Source: Coralliovum pocilloporae | GTDB taxonomy: Bacteria > Pseudomonadota > Alphaproteobacteria > Rhizobiales > Cohaesibacteraceae | Assembly: GCF_030845175.1 (NCBI RefSeq) | Contig: NZ_CP132542.1 | Span: forward strand, 372,001 to 436,000 | Length of the DNA stretch: 64,000 bases | Reading direction: 5' to 3' | Notes under the pieces: generated by a model | Seen by the model: only the letters and a program-made list of their open reading frames with translations | Database searches by the model: none | What the model was told of the DNA's origin: nothing | Program-made: the position numbers and the translations under genes | Shown here: in pieces, positions 55,027 through 63,332 of the stretch | Layout: every line of letters starts with the position of its first letter | How positions within the stretch are numbered: the stretch's first letter is position 1

Positions 55027-57603
55027 TTATCCTGCATTCGTCTCTGACAGAACTTCCTTCACCTTGGTCGCCAATTGCTTGAGCGAGAACGGTTTCGGCA
55101 GGAAATGGAATGTCTCATTCTCAGGCAGATTGCGCCGGAAGGCATCCTCCGCATAGCCTGACACAAAAATCACCTGCAGATCAGGGCGTTGCTTGCGCAG
55201 CTCGCCCAGAAGGGTCGGGCCATCCATTTCAGGCATGACCACATCTGAGACAACCAGATCGATCTGACCATCGGTCTCTTCCATGATCTCGAGCGCTTCT
55301 GTTCCCGTGCCCGCTTCATGAACCTTGTAACCACGAGAGGAAAGCGCACGGGCACCAAAGGCGCGGACAGCTTCTTCATCTTCCACCAGCAGAATGGTGG
55401 CATTGCCTGTCAGATCTGCCACCTGCGGCGGAGCCTCTGACAACTCCACAGGAGCTTTCTCGTCAGCCTTCTTCTCTTCCACATGGCGCGGCAGCAGAAT
55501 ACGGAAGGTCGTCCCTTCACCGACCGTACTAAGCGCGAAGATATAACCACCGGTCTGCTTCACGATGCCATAGACTGTGGACAGCCCAAGCCCGGTTCCC
55601 TTGCCAACATCCTTGGTGGAAAAGAACGGTTCGAAAATCTTGTTGAGAATGTCAGGTTCAATCCCGGTTCCGGTATCCTCCACCTCAATCATGGTGAAGT
55701 CCTGATCACTTTCCACCACTTCCTTGTGGCCAAGCGCAGAAACATCCTCTGCCGTGAGATTACTTGTCCGGATACGGACGCTACCGCCATCAGGCATGGC
55801 ATCCCGGGCATTGACAGCCAGGTTAATCACCACCTGCTCAAGCTGGTTCAGGTCAGCCTTAATCGGCCAGACATCCCGTCCATGGGAAACATCCAGCTCA
55901 ACCTTCTCTCCCAGAAGCCTGTCGAGCAGAATGGACAGGTCCGCCATCACATCCGGTAGAGCAAGCACCTGCGGGCGCAATGTCTGCCGTCTGGAGAACG
56001 CCAGAAGCTGCCGCACAAGTCCCGCCGCCCGGTTGGCGTTCTGCTTGATGTTCATAATGTCCTGGAAGGCTGCATCCGTTGGCCGGTGATTGGCCAGCAG
56101 CAGATCCGAGAACCCGATGATCGCTGTCAGAACATTGTTGAAGTCATGGGCAACGCCACCGGCCAGCTGCCCCACCGCCTGCATTTTCTGGCTCTGGGCA
56201 AACTGACTTTCCAGAGCCCTCTGCTCGGTGACGTCAAGGGCATAGACAATAACAGCTTCCCGCCCGTCATCCGTATCAGCATCTTCAACCGGATTGACAA
56301 AGAAACGGACGCTCTGGTCATCACCACCTTCAAAGGCCGCATCCACCGGGCTGACCGGACTTGATCCGGACAAAGCCGCCTCAATAGCAGCAGACAGGGC
56401 ATCCCTGTCGCGCTCTGCAATACAGTCCACAATGGGAACACTGGCGCTGTTCTCACCTGTCTTGACCTTGTCGCCAAACAGCTTGAGGAATGGTGCATTC
56501 GATGAACAGATCACCCCGTTGCGATCCAGTCCGGCAATAGCAATCGGTGTGTTGTTGAAGAAACGGGCAAAACGCACTTCAGCCACGCGCAGGCTTTCAG
56601 AAACATCTTCACCGGGGCTGCGGTTCAGAACAAACGAGCGGGTGCTCATCGTCGCCCCTTCAGGAGAGGCCGCAACCCGGTGCAACACGCGGACCGGCAG
56701 GCTTTGACCATTTCGTTTCAGCAAATCGAGGTCAACGGTTTCCGTCCTTACGGACCCGGGCGCAGCCGAGATAGATGACAGAAGTGCAATCCCGTCACCG
56801 CTCACCAGATCGCTCATGGACAGAGATCCCGGCTCAAACTGGGCCAGATCATACCCAAGCCAGTCAGAAAGCGTTGCATTCACATAGATAACACTGCCAT
56901 CGGCCTCTGTTGCCAGAAAGCCGGCCGGCGCGTGATCCAGATAATCAATGGCCAGCTGCAGTTCCTGAAAAATGTTTTCCTGCCGCTCACGGTCACGGGT
57001 GATATCGGCCACCTGCCACACCGTGTGGTTCTTCCTGCCATCTTCAAATGCCAGTGGCCTGACACGAATGCGATACCACCGTGCTCCGGTTCCATCGCCA
57101 TTGACCGCACCGGGCAGTCTGATCTCCTCAAGTGCCCGCCGATCATTCTCGGCGGCCTGAGCAAGGCGATAAAGCGACTCGGCCGCATCAGTAAACCCGG
57201 CAAACACGCGTTCCACCGAGCGGACCGCTTGTGATTCGGAAAGGCCGGTAAGCTCGGCATAGGCTGCATTAGCATAGATGATATGACCATCAGGCGCGGT
57301 CACCAGAACCCCTTCGACCGAACTGTCGAGAAAGGCCTTAGACAGACTGTCATCCTGCTCCTTGGCCCCAAAACGCAAGAGACCGATCGACAATGCAAAA
57401 ATACAGAGGATACCGAGCGCAGCCAAAATCCCCATAAAAATCAGGACGTAGAGATCTGATGTCTGGTTCTGGAGAAACACGATGGCAAGGATCGATACGA
57501 TGACAACGACCAATGCAGGGATCAACCACTTCATCTTGAGTGAGCGCCCAGAATGTTCAACAACCGGCTTGGGATGTTCGATAAATTCCTGGTTGTCGGA
57601 CAT
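55027..57603 (-). CDS. cckA: CckA-type hybrid sensor histidine kinase
   Basis: This 858-residue inner-membrane kinase has two N-terminal membrane helices (about 26-70), three PAS domains (about 85-440) and a HisKA helix with phospho-His in [19 protein letters not shown] near 483-501. The HATPase domain (about 600-720) carries N-box [14 protein letters not shown] and [14 protein letters not shown]-terminal receiver domain (about 735-855) has phospho-Asp in [13 protein letters not shown]. CckA controls CtrA through ChpT in alphaproteobacteria. The ATG at 57603 is used. It lies 139 bases downstream of flhB on the same strand. Confidence 0.92.
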
Positions 57604-57742
57604 GCCTGACAATCCCCCGTCCTTTCAAACGCCGCCCCTACGGCATTATCTTACACTTCACCCGTCATTGGGTTGGTTTAACGCAGGTTGAGGTTCTTCA
57701 AAACCTTTTTTACCTGCGGGCAGAACTTTCATGCCTGTCCGT

Positions 57743-58822
57743 TCAGGACGCGGCCCATCCCCGCCTCTTTTTCAACCGCATAACGTAACTGATAACTTCA
57801 GCGACAGCCCTGTAATGTTCCTCAGGAATCGGCTCTTCCACGTCCACCGTGGCATGCAGGGCACGCGCCAGCGGCGGGTTCTCGATAATCGGAACTTCGG
57901 CTTCGCGACCCACCTGACGAATTTTCAGCGCCATCGTATCAACTCCTTTGGCCACACAGACCGGCGCAGGCATGCCAGCTTCATATTTCAGCGCCACAGC
58001 ATAATGCGTCGGGTTGGTCACGATGACAGAAGCATCCGGCACGGCAGCCATCATGCGGTTCCGGCTGCGTTCCTGACGAAGCTGTCTGATGCGGGCCTTG
58101 ATCGCCGGATCCCCTTCGGTGTCTTTGTATTCGTCTTTCAGTTCCTTGAGGGACATTTTCTGCTTCTCAAACCACTGATGACGCTGCCAGAGAAAATCCG
58201 CTATCGCGACCACAGCAAGAATCGCAATCACGCCGCCAATCAGCTTGAGTGCCTCAAACTGGATGAAGCCCATCAACGCTGCCAGATCCATTGTGATCAG
58301 GCCTTCAAGGCGTTCCCGTTCCGGCCACATCAGAACGACCATGACAGCAGCCACGATGCCGATCTTTGCCAGCCCTTTGACGAAATTCATCAGGCTGTCT
58401 TTGGAAAACAGACGTTTAAAGCCAGCCAGCGGGGAAACTTTATTGAACTTGGGCTTGACCTTTTCAATGGTCAGGACCGGCTTGTGCTGCACCACATTGC
58501 CCGCGACAGACAGGAGCGCAAGCAGCGTCAAAGGCAGGAGGATCACACCAAACAGGTTCGCCCCGACATTATCGATCAGGGACAGGAGGCCACCCTGATC
58601 AATCGGGAACTGATGCGCATGTTCCAGGAAGCCCCGCATGGATACAGCCATACCGGAACTCATGCTGGAGCCGAAAATCATCAGAGCCAGAGCAATGCCA
58701 AAAACACTGAACCAGGTCGTTACCTCCTGGCTTTTCGGAACATCGCCCTTCTTGTGAGCCTCCTCAAGCTTTCGTTGGGAGGGGTCCTCAGTTTTCTCCG
58801 ACTGGTCGGTCTCGTCAGCCAT
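57743..58822 (-). CDS. flhB: Flagellar type III export protein FlhB
   Basis: This 359-residue FlhB starts DQSEKTEDPSQRKLEEAHKKG. It has four membrane helices (about 35-215) and a cytoplasmic domain with the autocleavage site NPTH (Asn270-Pro271) in VIVTNPTHYAVALKY. It switches export specificity from rod/hook to filament substrates. It is the last flagellar gene of the minus-strand block, 39 bases after fliR. Confidence 0.96.
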   Translation of the reverse strand: MADETDQSEKTEDPSQRKLEEAHKKGDVPKSQEVTTWFSVFGIALALMIFGSSMSSGMAVSMRGFLEHAHQFPIDQGGLLSLIDNVGANLFGVILLPLTLLALLSVAGNVVQHKPVLTIEKVKPKFNKVSPLAGFKRLFSKDSLMNFVKGLAKIGIVAAVMVVLMWPERERLEGLITMDLAALMGFIQFEALKLIGGVIAILAVVAIADFLWQRHQWFEKQKMSLKELKDEYKDTEGDPAIKARIRQLRQERSRNRMMAAVPDASVIVTNPTHYAVALKYEAGMPAPVCVAKGVDTMALKIRQVGREAEVPIIENPPLARALHATVDVEEPIPEEHYRAVAEVISYVMRLKKRRGWAAS

Positions 58823-58861
58823 AAGGCCTCATCTCCAAAACGCACAATCGAGCCTGTCTCG

Positions 58862-59620
58862 TCAGACCAGAAAGCGCCCGAACATCTCTTTCACATATTC
58901 GAGGTACCACATCATCATGCCTGCAAGCAGGAAGATGAAGAGCATCAAGCCGAAGCCGATATTGGCAGGCATTGCCACAAAGAAGATCTGTGCCTGTGGC
59001 ATCAGCTTCTGCAACAGGCCAACACCGAGATAAAACAGCAGACCGAAAACAATAAACGGAGCTGATATCTGGGTACCAATACGGAAGGATTCAGAAATCG
59101 CCTGGATTGCCATCATCAGCAGATCTCCGCTTGGCAGACCCTGCCCTGGCGGGAACAGCATGAAGGAATCATGGAAGCCCGCAATCAACAGGTGGTGCAG
59201 GTCGACCTTGAAAATCATCACGATAGCCAGAAGGGTCATGAATCCATCAAGCACAGTGCCCTGAATACCAAGCGTGGCGTTGAAGCTCTGGGCAAAGCTG
59301 ATTCCAATCTGGAATGCGATAATTGTGCCTGCCAACTGTACCGCGGCCAGAACAAGCCGGATGGACAATCCGATAAACAGACCAATCACAACCTCACCAA
59401 CAAGAATCGGCAGAATACCGACCACCGACGATGGAAAGGCCGTGTAATAGGGTCCAACAAGAGGATACAAAACCAGCACGGTGACAATTGCAAAAGCCAG
59501 GCGAATGTTAATCGAAACGGTCTGCTCGCCCACTCCGGGCATCAACATCACCATTGTACCGACCCGCGCAAAGATCAGCATAAAGACAAAGGCAATCTGG
59601 GGCAGAACCGAAAAGGTCAT
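58862..59620 (-). CDS. fliR: Flagellar export apparatus protein FliR
   Basis: This 252-residue membrane protein with about six helices starts FSVLPQIAFVFMLIFARVGTMVMLMPG. It contains LAFAIVTVLVLYPLVGP and IAFQIGISFAQSFNATLGIQG near 98-118, which are FliR hallmarks. It forms the export gate with FliP and FliQ. It starts eight bases after the fliQ stop. Confidence 0.95.
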   Translation of the reverse strand: MTFSVLPQIAFVFMLIFARVGTMVMLMPGVGEQTVSINIRLAFAIVTVLVLYPLVGPYYTAFPSSVVGILPILVGEVVIGLFIGLSIRLVLAAVQLAGTIIAFQIGISFAQSFNATLGIQGTVLDGFMTLLAIVMIFKVDLHHLLIAGFHDSFMLFPPGQGLPSGDLLMMAIQAISESFRIGTQISAPFIVFGLLFYLGVGLLQKLMPQAQIFFVAMPANIGFGLMLFIFLLAGMMMWYLEYVKEMFGRFLV

Positions 59621-59628
59621 TCTGGTCC

Positions 59629-59892
59629 CTACCCTGAGATAATGCGTTCCATGATACGAGTCATAAACCCGCCCATGGTTTGTCCCATGAAGGGAAGCGA
59701 CAACATCAATATGAAGAAAACAGCAAGAATCTTGGGAACAAAGACAAGCGTCATTTCCTGGATTTGCGTCAGAGCCTGGAAGAGGGCAATCACCACGCCG
59801 ACAACCAGACCAACGATCAGTACAGGCCCCCCGACTTTAATAACGGTCCAGATCGCGTCTCGCGACACATCAATGACTTCGGCGCCTTCCAT
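59629..59892 (-). CDS. fliQ: Flagellar export apparatus protein FliQ
   Basis: This 87-residue protein has two membrane helices (VIKVGGPVLIVGLVVGVVIAL and LAVFFILMLSLPFMGQTMGG) joined by the conserved FQALTQIQEMTLVFVPK. Length and pattern are standard for FliQ, a gate subunit. It lies between fliE and fliR. Confidence 0.96.
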   Translation of the reverse strand: MEGAEVIDVSRDAIWTVIKVGGPVLIVGLVVGVVIALFQALTQIQEMTLVFVPKILAVFFILMLSLPFMGQTMGGFMTRIMERIISG

Positions 59893-59936
59893 CGGTTTTG
59901 CTCCCGGCCAGAGGCACCCTGCAGCCTCATTCCCTA

Positions 59937-60254
59937 CTAGATCGGCATCCGCATAACGGTCTCATAAGCAGAGATCATCCGATCCCGCATCGATACCATT
60001 GATTCAAGCGCAACCTCGGTCTCAGCCACTGCAGTCACAACATCAACCACATTGGCTTTTCCCTGAAGCATGTCAGCCGCCTTCTGGTCAGATACCTTAC
60101 CCGATTCGATGACACTGCCTGCGGCTTCTTTGATAATCTGCCCGAAATCCATACCGCCTGTAGCGGCAGAAGAAAGTCCCTGGCTTGTTTCCGTCGGGTT
60201 AGAGAGCTGACTGATAGCTGAATAAGCATTAGCGGCGGACAATGGGCTGGTCAT
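59937..60254 (-). CDS. fliE: Flagellar hook-basal body protein FliE
   Basis: This 105-residue junction protein links the MS-ring to the rod. Its C-terminal part is diagnostic: ADMLQGKANVVDVVTAVAETEVALESMVSMRDRMISAYETVMRMPI in the usual FliE arrangement, described here by its ends QGKA and MRMPI. The N-terminal 45 residues are Ser/Ala-rich and flexible. It follows flgC by 44 bases. Confidence 0.95.
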   Translation of the reverse strand: MTSPLSAANAYSAISQLSNPTETSQGLSSAATGGMDFGQIIKEAAGSVIESGKVSDQKAADMLQGKANVVDVVTAVAETEVALESMVSMRDRMISAYETVMRMPI

Positions 60255-60298
60255 GGCTGGGTCTCTTCAGTGATCTTGTGGAAATATGACTGTGAGGT

Positions 60299-60709
60299 TC
60301 AGGCGCGAAGGATTTCAATGGTTCGGCTCAACATCCGCCGCGTTGCGGAGATGACGTTGAGGTTAGCCTGATAACTCCGCTGGGCCTCCTGCATGTCCAC
60401 GGTCTCAATCAGCGAGTTGACGTTGGGAAGCTTGACATATCCATTTGCGTCTGCGGCCGGATGACCTGGCTCGAACCGACTGCGGAACTCGGACTTATCT
60501 TCATCAATACGACCCAGCTGAACAGTCTGCGCCTGCAGTTCCCGGTCGAATTTTGATTCAAATGTCGGGATCTTACGCCGGTAAGGATCCGCATCCGGTG
60601 TCGACGCGGTCGATGAGGAATTGGCGAGGTTTTCGGCAATAACGCGCATGCGACCGCCCTGGGCCTTAAGCCCTGACGCCGCAATGGCCATGGATTTCAT
60701 AAAGTCCAT
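60299..60709 (-). CDS. flgC: Flagellar basal-body rod protein FlgC
   Basis: This 136-residue proximal rod protein starts MDFMKSMAIAASGLKAQGGR, with the conserved ENLANSSSTAS near 26-36, and ends with ETVDMQEAQRSYQANLNV and an SRTIEILRA tail. The ATG at 60709 follows GGGTGA. It lies 56 bases after flgB. Confidence 0.96.
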   Translation of the reverse strand: MDFMKSMAIAASGLKAQGGRMRVIAENLANSSSTASTPDADPYRRKIPTFESKFDRELQAQTVQLGRIDEDKSEFRSRFEPGHPAADANGYVKLPNVNSLIETVDMQEAQRSYQANLNVISATRRMLSRTIEILRA

Positions 60710-60765
60710 ATCATTCACCCTTGAGTTATCCAGCCACATTGGAGGCAGGCCGGATCATGAATTCG

Positions 60766-61173
60766 CTATCGGCGCGTAACAGCCGTTTTCAACATTTTCA
60801 GCCCGCGCTCATACAAAGAGGCAGCGGCCTGGAAATCCATCTGGTTGGCGGTGACTTTCATCATCTCTTCTTCAAGAACCACACGGTTGCCTTCCGGCGT
60901 AATCTCGAAGGTCCCGGTTTTCTGCGACTTGAACGCCCCCGTCCCACCAAGACCTGCAACCTTGATATGCTGCCTGTCTGTAACTGCCGTTGAAAAGCCG
61001 GACGGTGCGGCCTCTGCCATAACCTTGGAAAAGTCGAGAGCCTTCAGGTCACGGGCGCGGTAACCAGGCGTATCGGCATTAGCAACGTTTTCGGAAAGAA
61101 CACGCTGGCGGCTCTGGTGCCATTGCATCTTTGCCTTCATCTTGGCAAAAAACGGCATGTCTGTGAGTGCCAT
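60766..61173 (-). CDS. flgB: Flagellar basal-body rod protein FlgB
   Basis: This 135-residue rod protein has RQRVLSENVANADTPGYRARDL near 22-43, the common rod-protein motif, and a C-terminal heptad region ending YERGLKMLKTAVTRR. It has a good GGAGGGG ribosome site. It is the first gene of the minus-strand block flgB-flgC-fliE-fliQ-fliR-flhB and faces fliO across a 311-bp control region. Confidence 0.96.
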   Translation of the reverse strand: MALTDMPFFAKMKAKMQWHQSRQRVLSENVANADTPGYRARDLKALDFSKVMAEAAPSGFSTAVTDRQHIKVAGLGGTGAFKSQKTGTFEITPEGNRVVLEEEMMKVTANQMDFQAAASLYERGLKMLKTAVTRR

Positions 61174-61265
61174 AAGCCCCTCCGGAAGAAATCACTGCTT
61201 CAAAGCCCCGGCCACTGAACCGTCGCAATCCGCGTCACTTAGGGAAAATTTTGCCTACAACTTGG

Positions 61266-61280
61266 TTAACAAAAGATTAA
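61266..61280. promoter_or_regulatory. CtrA binding box 1 (TTAA-N7-TTAA)
   Basis: This is a perfect full-site match, TTAA-CAAAAGA-TTAA, to the alphaproteobacterial CtrA consensus. It lies 92 bases upstream of the flgB ATG in the divergent flgB/fliO region. Confidence 0.82.
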
Positions 61281-61355
61281 TACGGCACGACAACCATGTT
61301 TGGACATTTTGTCTTTTTATAGTATTTTCATGGAGTTATGATGTTTTTCAACTTT

Positions 61356-61370
61356 TTAACGGTTCATTAA
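61356..61370. promoter_or_regulatory. CtrA binding box 2 (TTAA-N7-TTAA)
   Basis: A second perfect full site, TTAA-CGGTTCA-TTAA, lies 90 bases from box 1 and 114 bases upstream of the fliO ATG. Such motifs are rare by chance, so two in one 311-bp region support direct CtrA control of both transcription units. Confidence 0.82.
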
Positions 61371-61425
61371 TTCGGCAAATTCTGCCGAACCTGTTAAATA
61401 GTTTGAAGAAAATTGCTCGAATCGT

Positions 61426-61446
61426 CATTTTCAGAACCTGAAAATG
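61426..61446. other. Perfect hairpin in the fliO leader
   Basis: CATTTTCAG and CTGAAAATG pair around AAC. It ends 38 bases before the fliO start. There is no downstream T run, so it is not a terminator. It could affect leader RNA stability or mark a small regulator site. Confidence 0.4.
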
Positions 61447-61484
61447 ACTTTCGGTACCGCATTTATGAATCAGGAGTCACGAGT

Positions 61485-63332
61485 ATGCGGGAAGCACTGG
61501 CAAATCTGTTTGGCGAAGAAGGCGGCCTTGCGGCTTATGTTCTGATCGCCCTGATCCTTGTCGTTCTGGCCATTCTGTTGTTCGGTTGGGTCTTGCGCCG
61601 AATTAAAGGCATCAAGGTTACAGGCCACACACGGAACAGGCAGCCTCGCCTGGCTGTGATGGACAGCGCTCCGGTAGATGGGCGCCGTCGCCTGATTCTC
61701 ATTCGCAGAGACAATGTGGAACATCTGGTAATGGTCGGCGGCCCTACCGATATTGTGGTCGAACCAGGGATTATCAGAGGTGCACCGGCAGCCATGCGGC
61801 CACCACGGCAGCAACAGGCTCCGATGGCTCATCCATCCCAGATGCAGCCCCCTCCAATGCAGGCCCCTCAAACGCCGCCGGTGCAAACACCTCCGACAAC
61901 TGCGGCACCTGTGCCACCTGCTCAGCCCGCACGGTCACCTGGCGCATCAGCACAAGCCGCTTCGGCTGCCTTGTCGGGCATGACAGCAGCCAACCAGACA
62001 ACCAGTCAGGCGGCCAATCCGACAGAACGTCGGGAACAGGATCCTTCCGCTCCCAAGCAATCAGGTTCTCCTGCGATTGCGACAGATCCGCTGGCAGCCT
62101 CTGCGGTCAGGACTGATCCCCGGGTTCAGACAACGCCACCACAGGCAGCTCCATCCGTGGTGTCCCCTGCGGCCGCACCGCGATCTGGTACGCAGCCGTC
62201 AACAGCACCGTCAGCGACCAGTCCGTCTGCGCAACGCGCATCACAACCGGTAACAGAAGCATCCAGAAGAGTTGCGGCAGCGGCAAAACCTGCAGCAACC
62301 AAAACACTCGATGACACTAAGACGGAAGCCAAACCGGCTTCAGCTCCCGTCGCGGCCCCGACGCCGACCCCAACATCGACAAAGTCAACTGCTCAGGCCT
62401 CTTCTCAGGCGCCTAAACCTGTCAGCCAGACACTTGACCCTGCACCAGCGCCGGCCATGCCGGAACCGGAAGCAAAGACAGCAAGACGTCCAATCTTTGG
62501 TGCTGGCCTGCAAACAGAACGCCGAACATCAGAGCAGAAGACAACAGAGCAACCCGATCAGAACAGCAAGGCAAAAGACAAGGGTGCACCGGAAGTCAAG
62601 TCAGATGGAGACGCAAAGAAAGGGAACCAGCCTCCCAAAGCTGCAGCTTCTGGCAAGCCGGAAGAGGCAAAGGCACCTGCTCCACAAGAACAGACACAAG
62701 GCGTAGCCAAAGAGACTGCTTCAAAAGCGGAAACCAGCGCAAAGGCAGAGAAAGACGCTCAGAAACCCAAGTCCCCTGCCCAAGAGGCGAAGAAGACGGT
62801 TTCCGAGGAAAAAACAGACAATTCAAAAGCGCCTGACCCGGCTCCAAAAGTAGCGGGCGCAAAGACACCGGCTGCCGAGGACAAGCAGACCGACACACCT
62901 TCCAGTGAGCCCGACAACCGCCAGAAAAACAAGGCGGAACCTGCTGCAGCAACGTCAGGAAAGGCACCAGCGAAGAGCAAGCCATCCGCTGACGCCTCGT
63001 CCAAGACAAAGGACGCCCCGGAACCCGCTGCTGAAGCCGGACAACAGGAAGAAGACGAAGGTATTATCTCCGCTGAATCCGTTGCACGGATGGAAGAAGA
63101 TCTGGCTAATCTGCTGAATGTGGTTGCAAACCGCGACCCGGCTCTGGATCAAGGCAATAAAGCACCATCTGTACGTCCGGAAGGGCAACCGAAGCAGGAC
63201 GCTGCTGAAGCCAGCGCTGACGATAATAAAGGCGGTTCATCCGAGACCGGTGCACAGAAGAAAAAGACCGATCCCATTGAAGACGAAATGGCCAAGCTTC
63301 TTGGCGAACTGAGTGCGAGTATCAAATCCTGA
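61485..63332 (+). CDS. fliO: FliO-like flagellar protein with a very long disordered tail
   Basis: This 615-residue protein has one membrane helix (YVLIALILVVLAILLFGWVL, about 16-35). A FliO-like SH3-like region follows, with RLAVMDSAPVDGRRRLILIRR near 52-72 and VEHLVMVGGPTDIVVEP near 75-91. Residues ~100-540 are a low-complexity Pro/Ala/Gln/Ser/Lys/Glu tail, Pro/Gln/Ala-rich first and Lys/Glu-rich later. A short more regular C-terminus (IEDEMAKLLGELSASIK) follows. Usual FliO proteins are about 100-150 residues. CAGGAG precedes the ATG at 61485. fliP follows after 61 bases, supporting the assignment. Confidence 0.85.
   Translation: MREALANLFGEEGGLAAYVLIALILVVLAILLFGWVLRRIKGIKVTGHTRNRQPRLAVMDSAPVDGRRRLILIRRDNVEHLVMVGGPTDIVVEPGIIRGAPAAMRPPRQQQAPMAHPSQMQPPPMQAPQTPPVQTPPTTAAPVPPAQPARSPGASAQAASAALSGMTAANQTTSQAANPTERREQDPSAPKQSGSPAIATDPLAASAVRTDPRVQTTPPQAAPSVVSPAAAPRSGTQPSTAPSATSPSAQRASQPVTEASRRVAAAAKPAATKTLDDTKTEAKPASAPVAAPTPTPTSTKSTAQASSQAPKPVSQTLDPAPAPAMPEPEAKTARRPIFGAGLQTERRTSEQKTTEQPDQNSKAKDKGAPEVKSDGDAKKGNQPPKAAASGKPEEAKAPAPQEQTQGVAKETASKAETSAKAEKDAQKPKSPAQEAKKTVSEEKTDNSKAPDPAPKVAGAKTPAAEDKQTDTPSSEPDNRQKNKAEPAAATSGKAPAKSKPSADASSKTKDAPEPAAEAGQQEEDEGIISAESVARMEEDLANLLNVVANRDPALDQGNKAPSVRPEGQPKQDAAEASADDNKGGSSETGAQKKKTDPIEDEMAKLLGELSASIKS

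Follow-up and report, generated by a model that had tools for sequence, protein, structure and literature searches.

Conserved predicted CtrA sites and adjoining candidate FlbD operators in the divergent flgB/fliO region of Coralliovum pocilloporae

Introduction

CtrA control of the flgB/fliO region is known in Caulobacter (cited in PMC6180460). As cited in PMC6180460, one CtrA site serves both genes in Caulobacter crescentus, flgB is reported to be repressed by CtrA, and the rod genes need RpoN/FlbD. FlbD represses the fliF promoter in Caulobacter (PMC3930126). At the CtrA promoters of Rhodobacter sphaeroides, the start site lies 23-24 nt after the CtrA box (PMC6180460).

Here we analysed the flgB/fliO region of Coralliovum pocilloporae. 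A preliminary description of this DNA had read the region as a target of CckA-ChpT-CtrA. Its CtrA part held, but it missed the GGCA-N5-TGCC palindromes beside both CtrA boxes and the FlbD input that they imply. Judging from the sequence and its conservation, we propose that the gap is probably a divergent class II promoter pair activated by CtrA and repressed by FlbD.

Results

Genes of the locus and the regulators

The window is a stretch of 64,000 nucleotides from a genome of 3.92 Mb in one contig, whose family, within Hyphomicrobiales, has Cohaesibacter-like members; positions are those of the window unless marked as genome positions. It contains the following genes.

60766-61173, minus strand, flgB (PF00460), first gene of the run flgB-flgC-fliE-fliQ-fliR-flhB-cckA
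60299-60739, minus strand, flgC (PF06429)
59937-60254, minus strand, fliE (PF02049)
59629-59892, minus strand, fliQ (PF01313)
58862-59620, minus strand, fliR (PF01311)
57743-58822, minus strand, flhB (PF01312)
55027-57612, minus strand, cckA, a hybrid kinase (NCBIfam NF046020, 1263 bits, cut-off 1000)
61485-63332, plus strand, fliO (PF04347), with a long Ala/Pro-rich tail

The cckA gene lies directly downstream of flhB on the same strand and starts 130 bp after it, as the preliminary description had placed it; its listed start is TTG, with an ATG 9 bases inside. The kinase and its target genes do share one locus, as had been suggested. This adjacency is ordinary and not special to this genome, because cckA was found within 400 bp after flhB in 90 of 111 loci, including those of the Ponticaulis type. 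The further suggestion of feedback is not supported in its direct form. The flhB-cckA gap contains no CtrA box in this genome, and among relatives a box was present there in only 5 of 82. The same gap was scanned for a promoter or terminator and none was found. All five cckA-proximal boxes stand at -96 to -101 and come from Pelagibacterium-like loci, where CtrA may act on cckA in a lineage-specific feedback.

The genome encodes CtrA, ChpT and CckA, each above its NCBIfam cut-off (NF045991, NF046018 and NF046020), and the CtrA gene that the preliminary reading depended on is found at genome position 779603, its product being 83% identical to Caulobacter CtrA. FlbD is encoded as well (NF050807, 810 bits against a cut-off of 750), between genes that by eye resemble fliG/fliH and flhA. 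A second flagellar/chemotaxis locus, at 772-787 kb, contains ctrA and chpT; there ctrA is divergent from fliI and near che genes. Overlapping TTAA-N9-TTAA repeats and a TTAACCAT half site were observed upstream of ctrA in the fliI-ctrA gap (genome 779368-779397), and autoregulation of ctrA through these repeats is possible. At genome 450433-455787, three flagellin-like genes were also observed in tandem; their products have 502-503 residues and closely resemble each other at the N-terminus.

CtrA boxes in the flgB/fliO gap

Two exact TTAA-N7-TTAA sites, 90 bp apart, were confirmed at the positions given in the preliminary description. They lie in the 311-bp gap that extends from the end of flgB at 61173 to the fliO ATG at 61485.

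61266-61280, minus strand, CtrA box of the flgB promoter, TTAACAAAAGATTAA (minus-strand reading TTAATCTTTTGTTAACC), kept in the gaps of 91 of 94 relatives
61356-61370, plus strand, second CtrA box, on the fliO side, TTAACGGTTCATTAA, an exact pattern match

No other full site had been noticed in the intergenic regions checked by eye, and an exact pattern search extended this to the whole 64-kb window. Shuffled windows contained 0.20 exact sites on average, and two sites were reached in 2 of 100 shuffles.

Such boxes could in principle be chance matches in AT-rich DNA, and a whole-genome count, which had been proposed as a check, showed no excess: 36 TTAA-N7-TTAA sites against 39 for the reversed control AATT-N7-AATT. 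This comparison is uninformative because AATT and TTAA differ in frequency and base context, and a control on the spacer is the better test. Among the first 100 matches listed with spacers of 4-10, 31 had the N7 spacer, whereas the remaining six spacers averaged 11.5 (binomial p about 2e-5). The flgB-fliO gaps of relatives gave the same preference, with an N7 site in 91 of 94 distinct gaps, at most 7 for each spacer of 3-6 and 8-12, and 0.57 for shuffled sequences. In a subset drawn across families of Hyphomicrobiales, 26 of 29 gaps carried the N7 site, and the position of the box is conserved across this order. At least two boxes were present in 9 other flgB-fliO gaps. Because 91 of 94 relatives keep the site in the same gap, and N7 exceeds the other spacers, a chance origin of the two boxes is extremely improbable, and for the flgB-side box it is already refuted. 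Hence the gap holds real, conserved predicted CtrA sites.

Some Cohaesibacter-like genomes have two CtrA boxes 21 bp, or two helical turns, apart before flgB. Other CtrA boxes in this genome adjoin rpoD, pal/tolB and genes for a prepilin peptidase, GGDEF/EAL proteins and an ABC ATPase resembling FtsE by eye, and these neighbours fit known CtrA roles. Two full boxes lie upstream of the class II (B12-dependent) ribonucleotide reductase gene (genome 2505299-2505337). Another full box (genome 1492100-1492114) is in the AT-rich gap between hemE and a kinase-pyrophosphorylase gene, with DnaA-box-like words beside hemE. The hemE gene marks the neighbourhood of the Caulobacter replication origin, and the hemE gap is a candidate CtrA-controlled oriC.

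Palindromes beside the CtrA boxes

Each of the two boxes has a palindrome beside it, and the two palindromes are 131 bp apart.

61243-61255, minus strand, candidate FlbD operator at flgB, GGCAAAATTTTCC, one arm base off GGCA-N5-TGCC
61371-61389 (core 61374-61386), plus strand, candidate FlbD operator at fliO, perfect inverted repeat TTCGGCA-AATTC-TGCCGAA

Counted from the start of the second CtrA half site, the flgB palindrome has an offset of 14 nt, and it would cover -13 to about -1 of the promoter, if the flgB start site is placed by the R. sphaeroides spacing (PMC6180460). An exact GGCA-N5-TGCC was found in 78 of 94 flgB-fliO gaps, compared with at most 2 gaps for each spacer of 2-4 and 6-8 and 0.8 for shuffled sequences, and the gaps of 41 of the 94 relatives contained two exact copies. 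In the site alignment of the relatives, a conserved TTAACCAT end comes downstream of the flgB-side box, with GGCA-N5-TGCC after a loosely conserved stretch of 6-8 bases. The offset of the palindrome from the second TTAA of the box was 13 or 14 in 78 of the 79 close pairs.

On the fliO side, the palindrome is present in many relatives, and its offset is 14 in 13 of them, whose boxes are mostly TTAAC-N6-TTAG. Here the corresponding offset is just 7 nt and not 14, and for this reason the fliO side of the two-input model is weaker, whereas the flgB side has good support. In Devosia-type loci the palindrome on the fliO side is retained, with a different, CTCGCATTTTGCACATTTG-like conserved stretch replacing the CtrA box.

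Since the palindrome arms overlap the predicted -10 region, conservation at flgB could partly reflect the core promoter. The palindrome might even be nothing but the -10 region of CtrA-dependent promoters, in which case CtrA alone would control the pair. The fixed offset of 13-14 would agree with this. So would an A and, seven bases from it, a G, which correspond to the conserved A(-11) and G(-4) at the CtrA promoters of R. sphaeroides, where there is no FlbD (PMC6180460). However, both arms of the 13-bp dyad are kept, the same dyad occurs upstream of sigma-54 promoters that have no CtrA box, and the offsets of 7 at fliO and 11 at flgI in this genome misfit a single promoter geometry. We consider this explanation rather unlikely and favor a protein-binding site at the palindrome.

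Palindromes at other flagellar promoters

The palindrome is common to sigma-54 class III flagellar promoters and class II promoters. Upstream of flgF, it was found exactly or with one mismatch in 30 of 30 relatives, some 65-105 bp before the sigma-54 site; with a strict pattern, a -24/-12 site was detected downstream of it in 27 of 30 (0.23 in shuffled sequences), and no CtrA box was found upstream of flgF in 29 of the 30. In this genome, flgF, flgE and fliK have palindromes with sigma-54-like sites downstream, and at fliF a CtrA box with one mismatch precedes the palindrome at an offset of 14 nt. Several of the copies at flagellar promoters of this genome carry one mismatch. Upstream of flgI (genome 447780-447814), a single promoter combines the three elements: a CtrA box was observed 11 nt before a palindrome, and a sigma-54-like site follows after about 110 bp. 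The idea that the palindrome is itself a sigma-54 site was rejected, as its GG-to-GC spacing is 8 and not 10. Twelve further genomic copies, a sample rather than a full census, were examined, and all 12 were inside reading frames.

GGCA-N5-TGCC is most likely the FlbD operator. FlbD is the NtrC-type activator of the flagellar system known to repress early genes and to turn on late ones (PMC3930126). A different regulator, such as SciP or another NtrC-type protein, might bind instead, as NtrC-type activators number about a dozen in this genome and SciP is known beside CtrA sites (PMC4287350). The reported SciP palindrome is GCGNC-N5-GNCGC, which differs from GGCA-N5-TGCC, and SciP was rejected as the binder on this ground. 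Moreover, most intergenic near-matches in the two flagellar regions scanned directly precede flagellar operons, which points to a flagellar activator and makes a regulator other than FlbD very unlikely. The distribution of FlbD does not separate these readings, because almost every relative that shares this gene order encodes FlbD, whether or not it has the flgB palindrome; in a few genomes FlbD is present and the flgB palindrome is absent. In seven relatives of the order without a FlbD match, no box/palindrome pair was found at flgB beyond one fuzzy match, but their flagellar gene set and arrangement differ, which confounds this comparison.

Discussion

If FlbD is the protein at the palindromes, the cell cycle probably turns the early flgB/fliO operons on, and the progress of assembly probably turns them off. 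The CckA-ChpT relay would yield phosphorylated CtrA, which would bind TTAA-N7-TTAA near -35 and activate flgB, and probably fliO too. Once the early basal-body parts were assembled, FlbD at the palindrome over the -10 region would shut off the flgB and fliO promoters, whereas at palindromes about 65-120 bp upstream of the sigma-54 promoters of flgF, flgE, flgI and fliK it would activate the later genes. In this model we infer the protein bound at the palindrome, the start sites and the direction of each effect. It is also conceivable, though unlikely, that an FlbD oligomer bridges both palindromes, so that looping lets a single assembly signal shut the two early operons together while CtrA stays on its boxes. 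If true, looping would be a two-operon switch that couples the cell cycle to flagellar assembly.

One of the closest described systems is the flgB/fliO region of C. crescentus (cited in PMC6180460), which has the same divergent pair with CtrA binding in the gap. Unlike that region, the gap described here has a pair of boxes, of which the one on the flgB side is placed for activation, and a palindrome lies beside each. The Caulobacter fliF promoter with ftr4 (PMC3930126) is likewise an early flagellar promoter that combines CtrA activation with FlbD repression, whereas here the layout reaches flgB (and fliO), and its 13-14-nt spacing is kept across the order. The fla2 genes flgB2/fliI2 of R. 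sphaeroides (PMC6180460) also have an independent CtrA site for each of their two divergent flagellar promoters, but they operate without FlbD, have 6-bp half-site spacers and form a different gene pair.

CtrA at the Caulobacter flgB/fliO promoters and FlbD repression of fliF were thus already known. As far as could be checked, the primary ftr literature aside, the composite flgB layout and its fixed spacing across Hyphomicrobiales are new. They suggest two sequence rules for this order: a CtrA box, 13-14 nt and GGCA-N5-TGCC at early promoters, and GGCA-N5-TGCC followed by a sigma-54 site at later ones. If the rules are true, the flagellar hierarchy could be read from sequence throughout this order, on whose FlbD there is little work in the accessible literature. 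They would predict FlbD repression at flgB, which in Caulobacter does not serve as a CtrA-activated gene.
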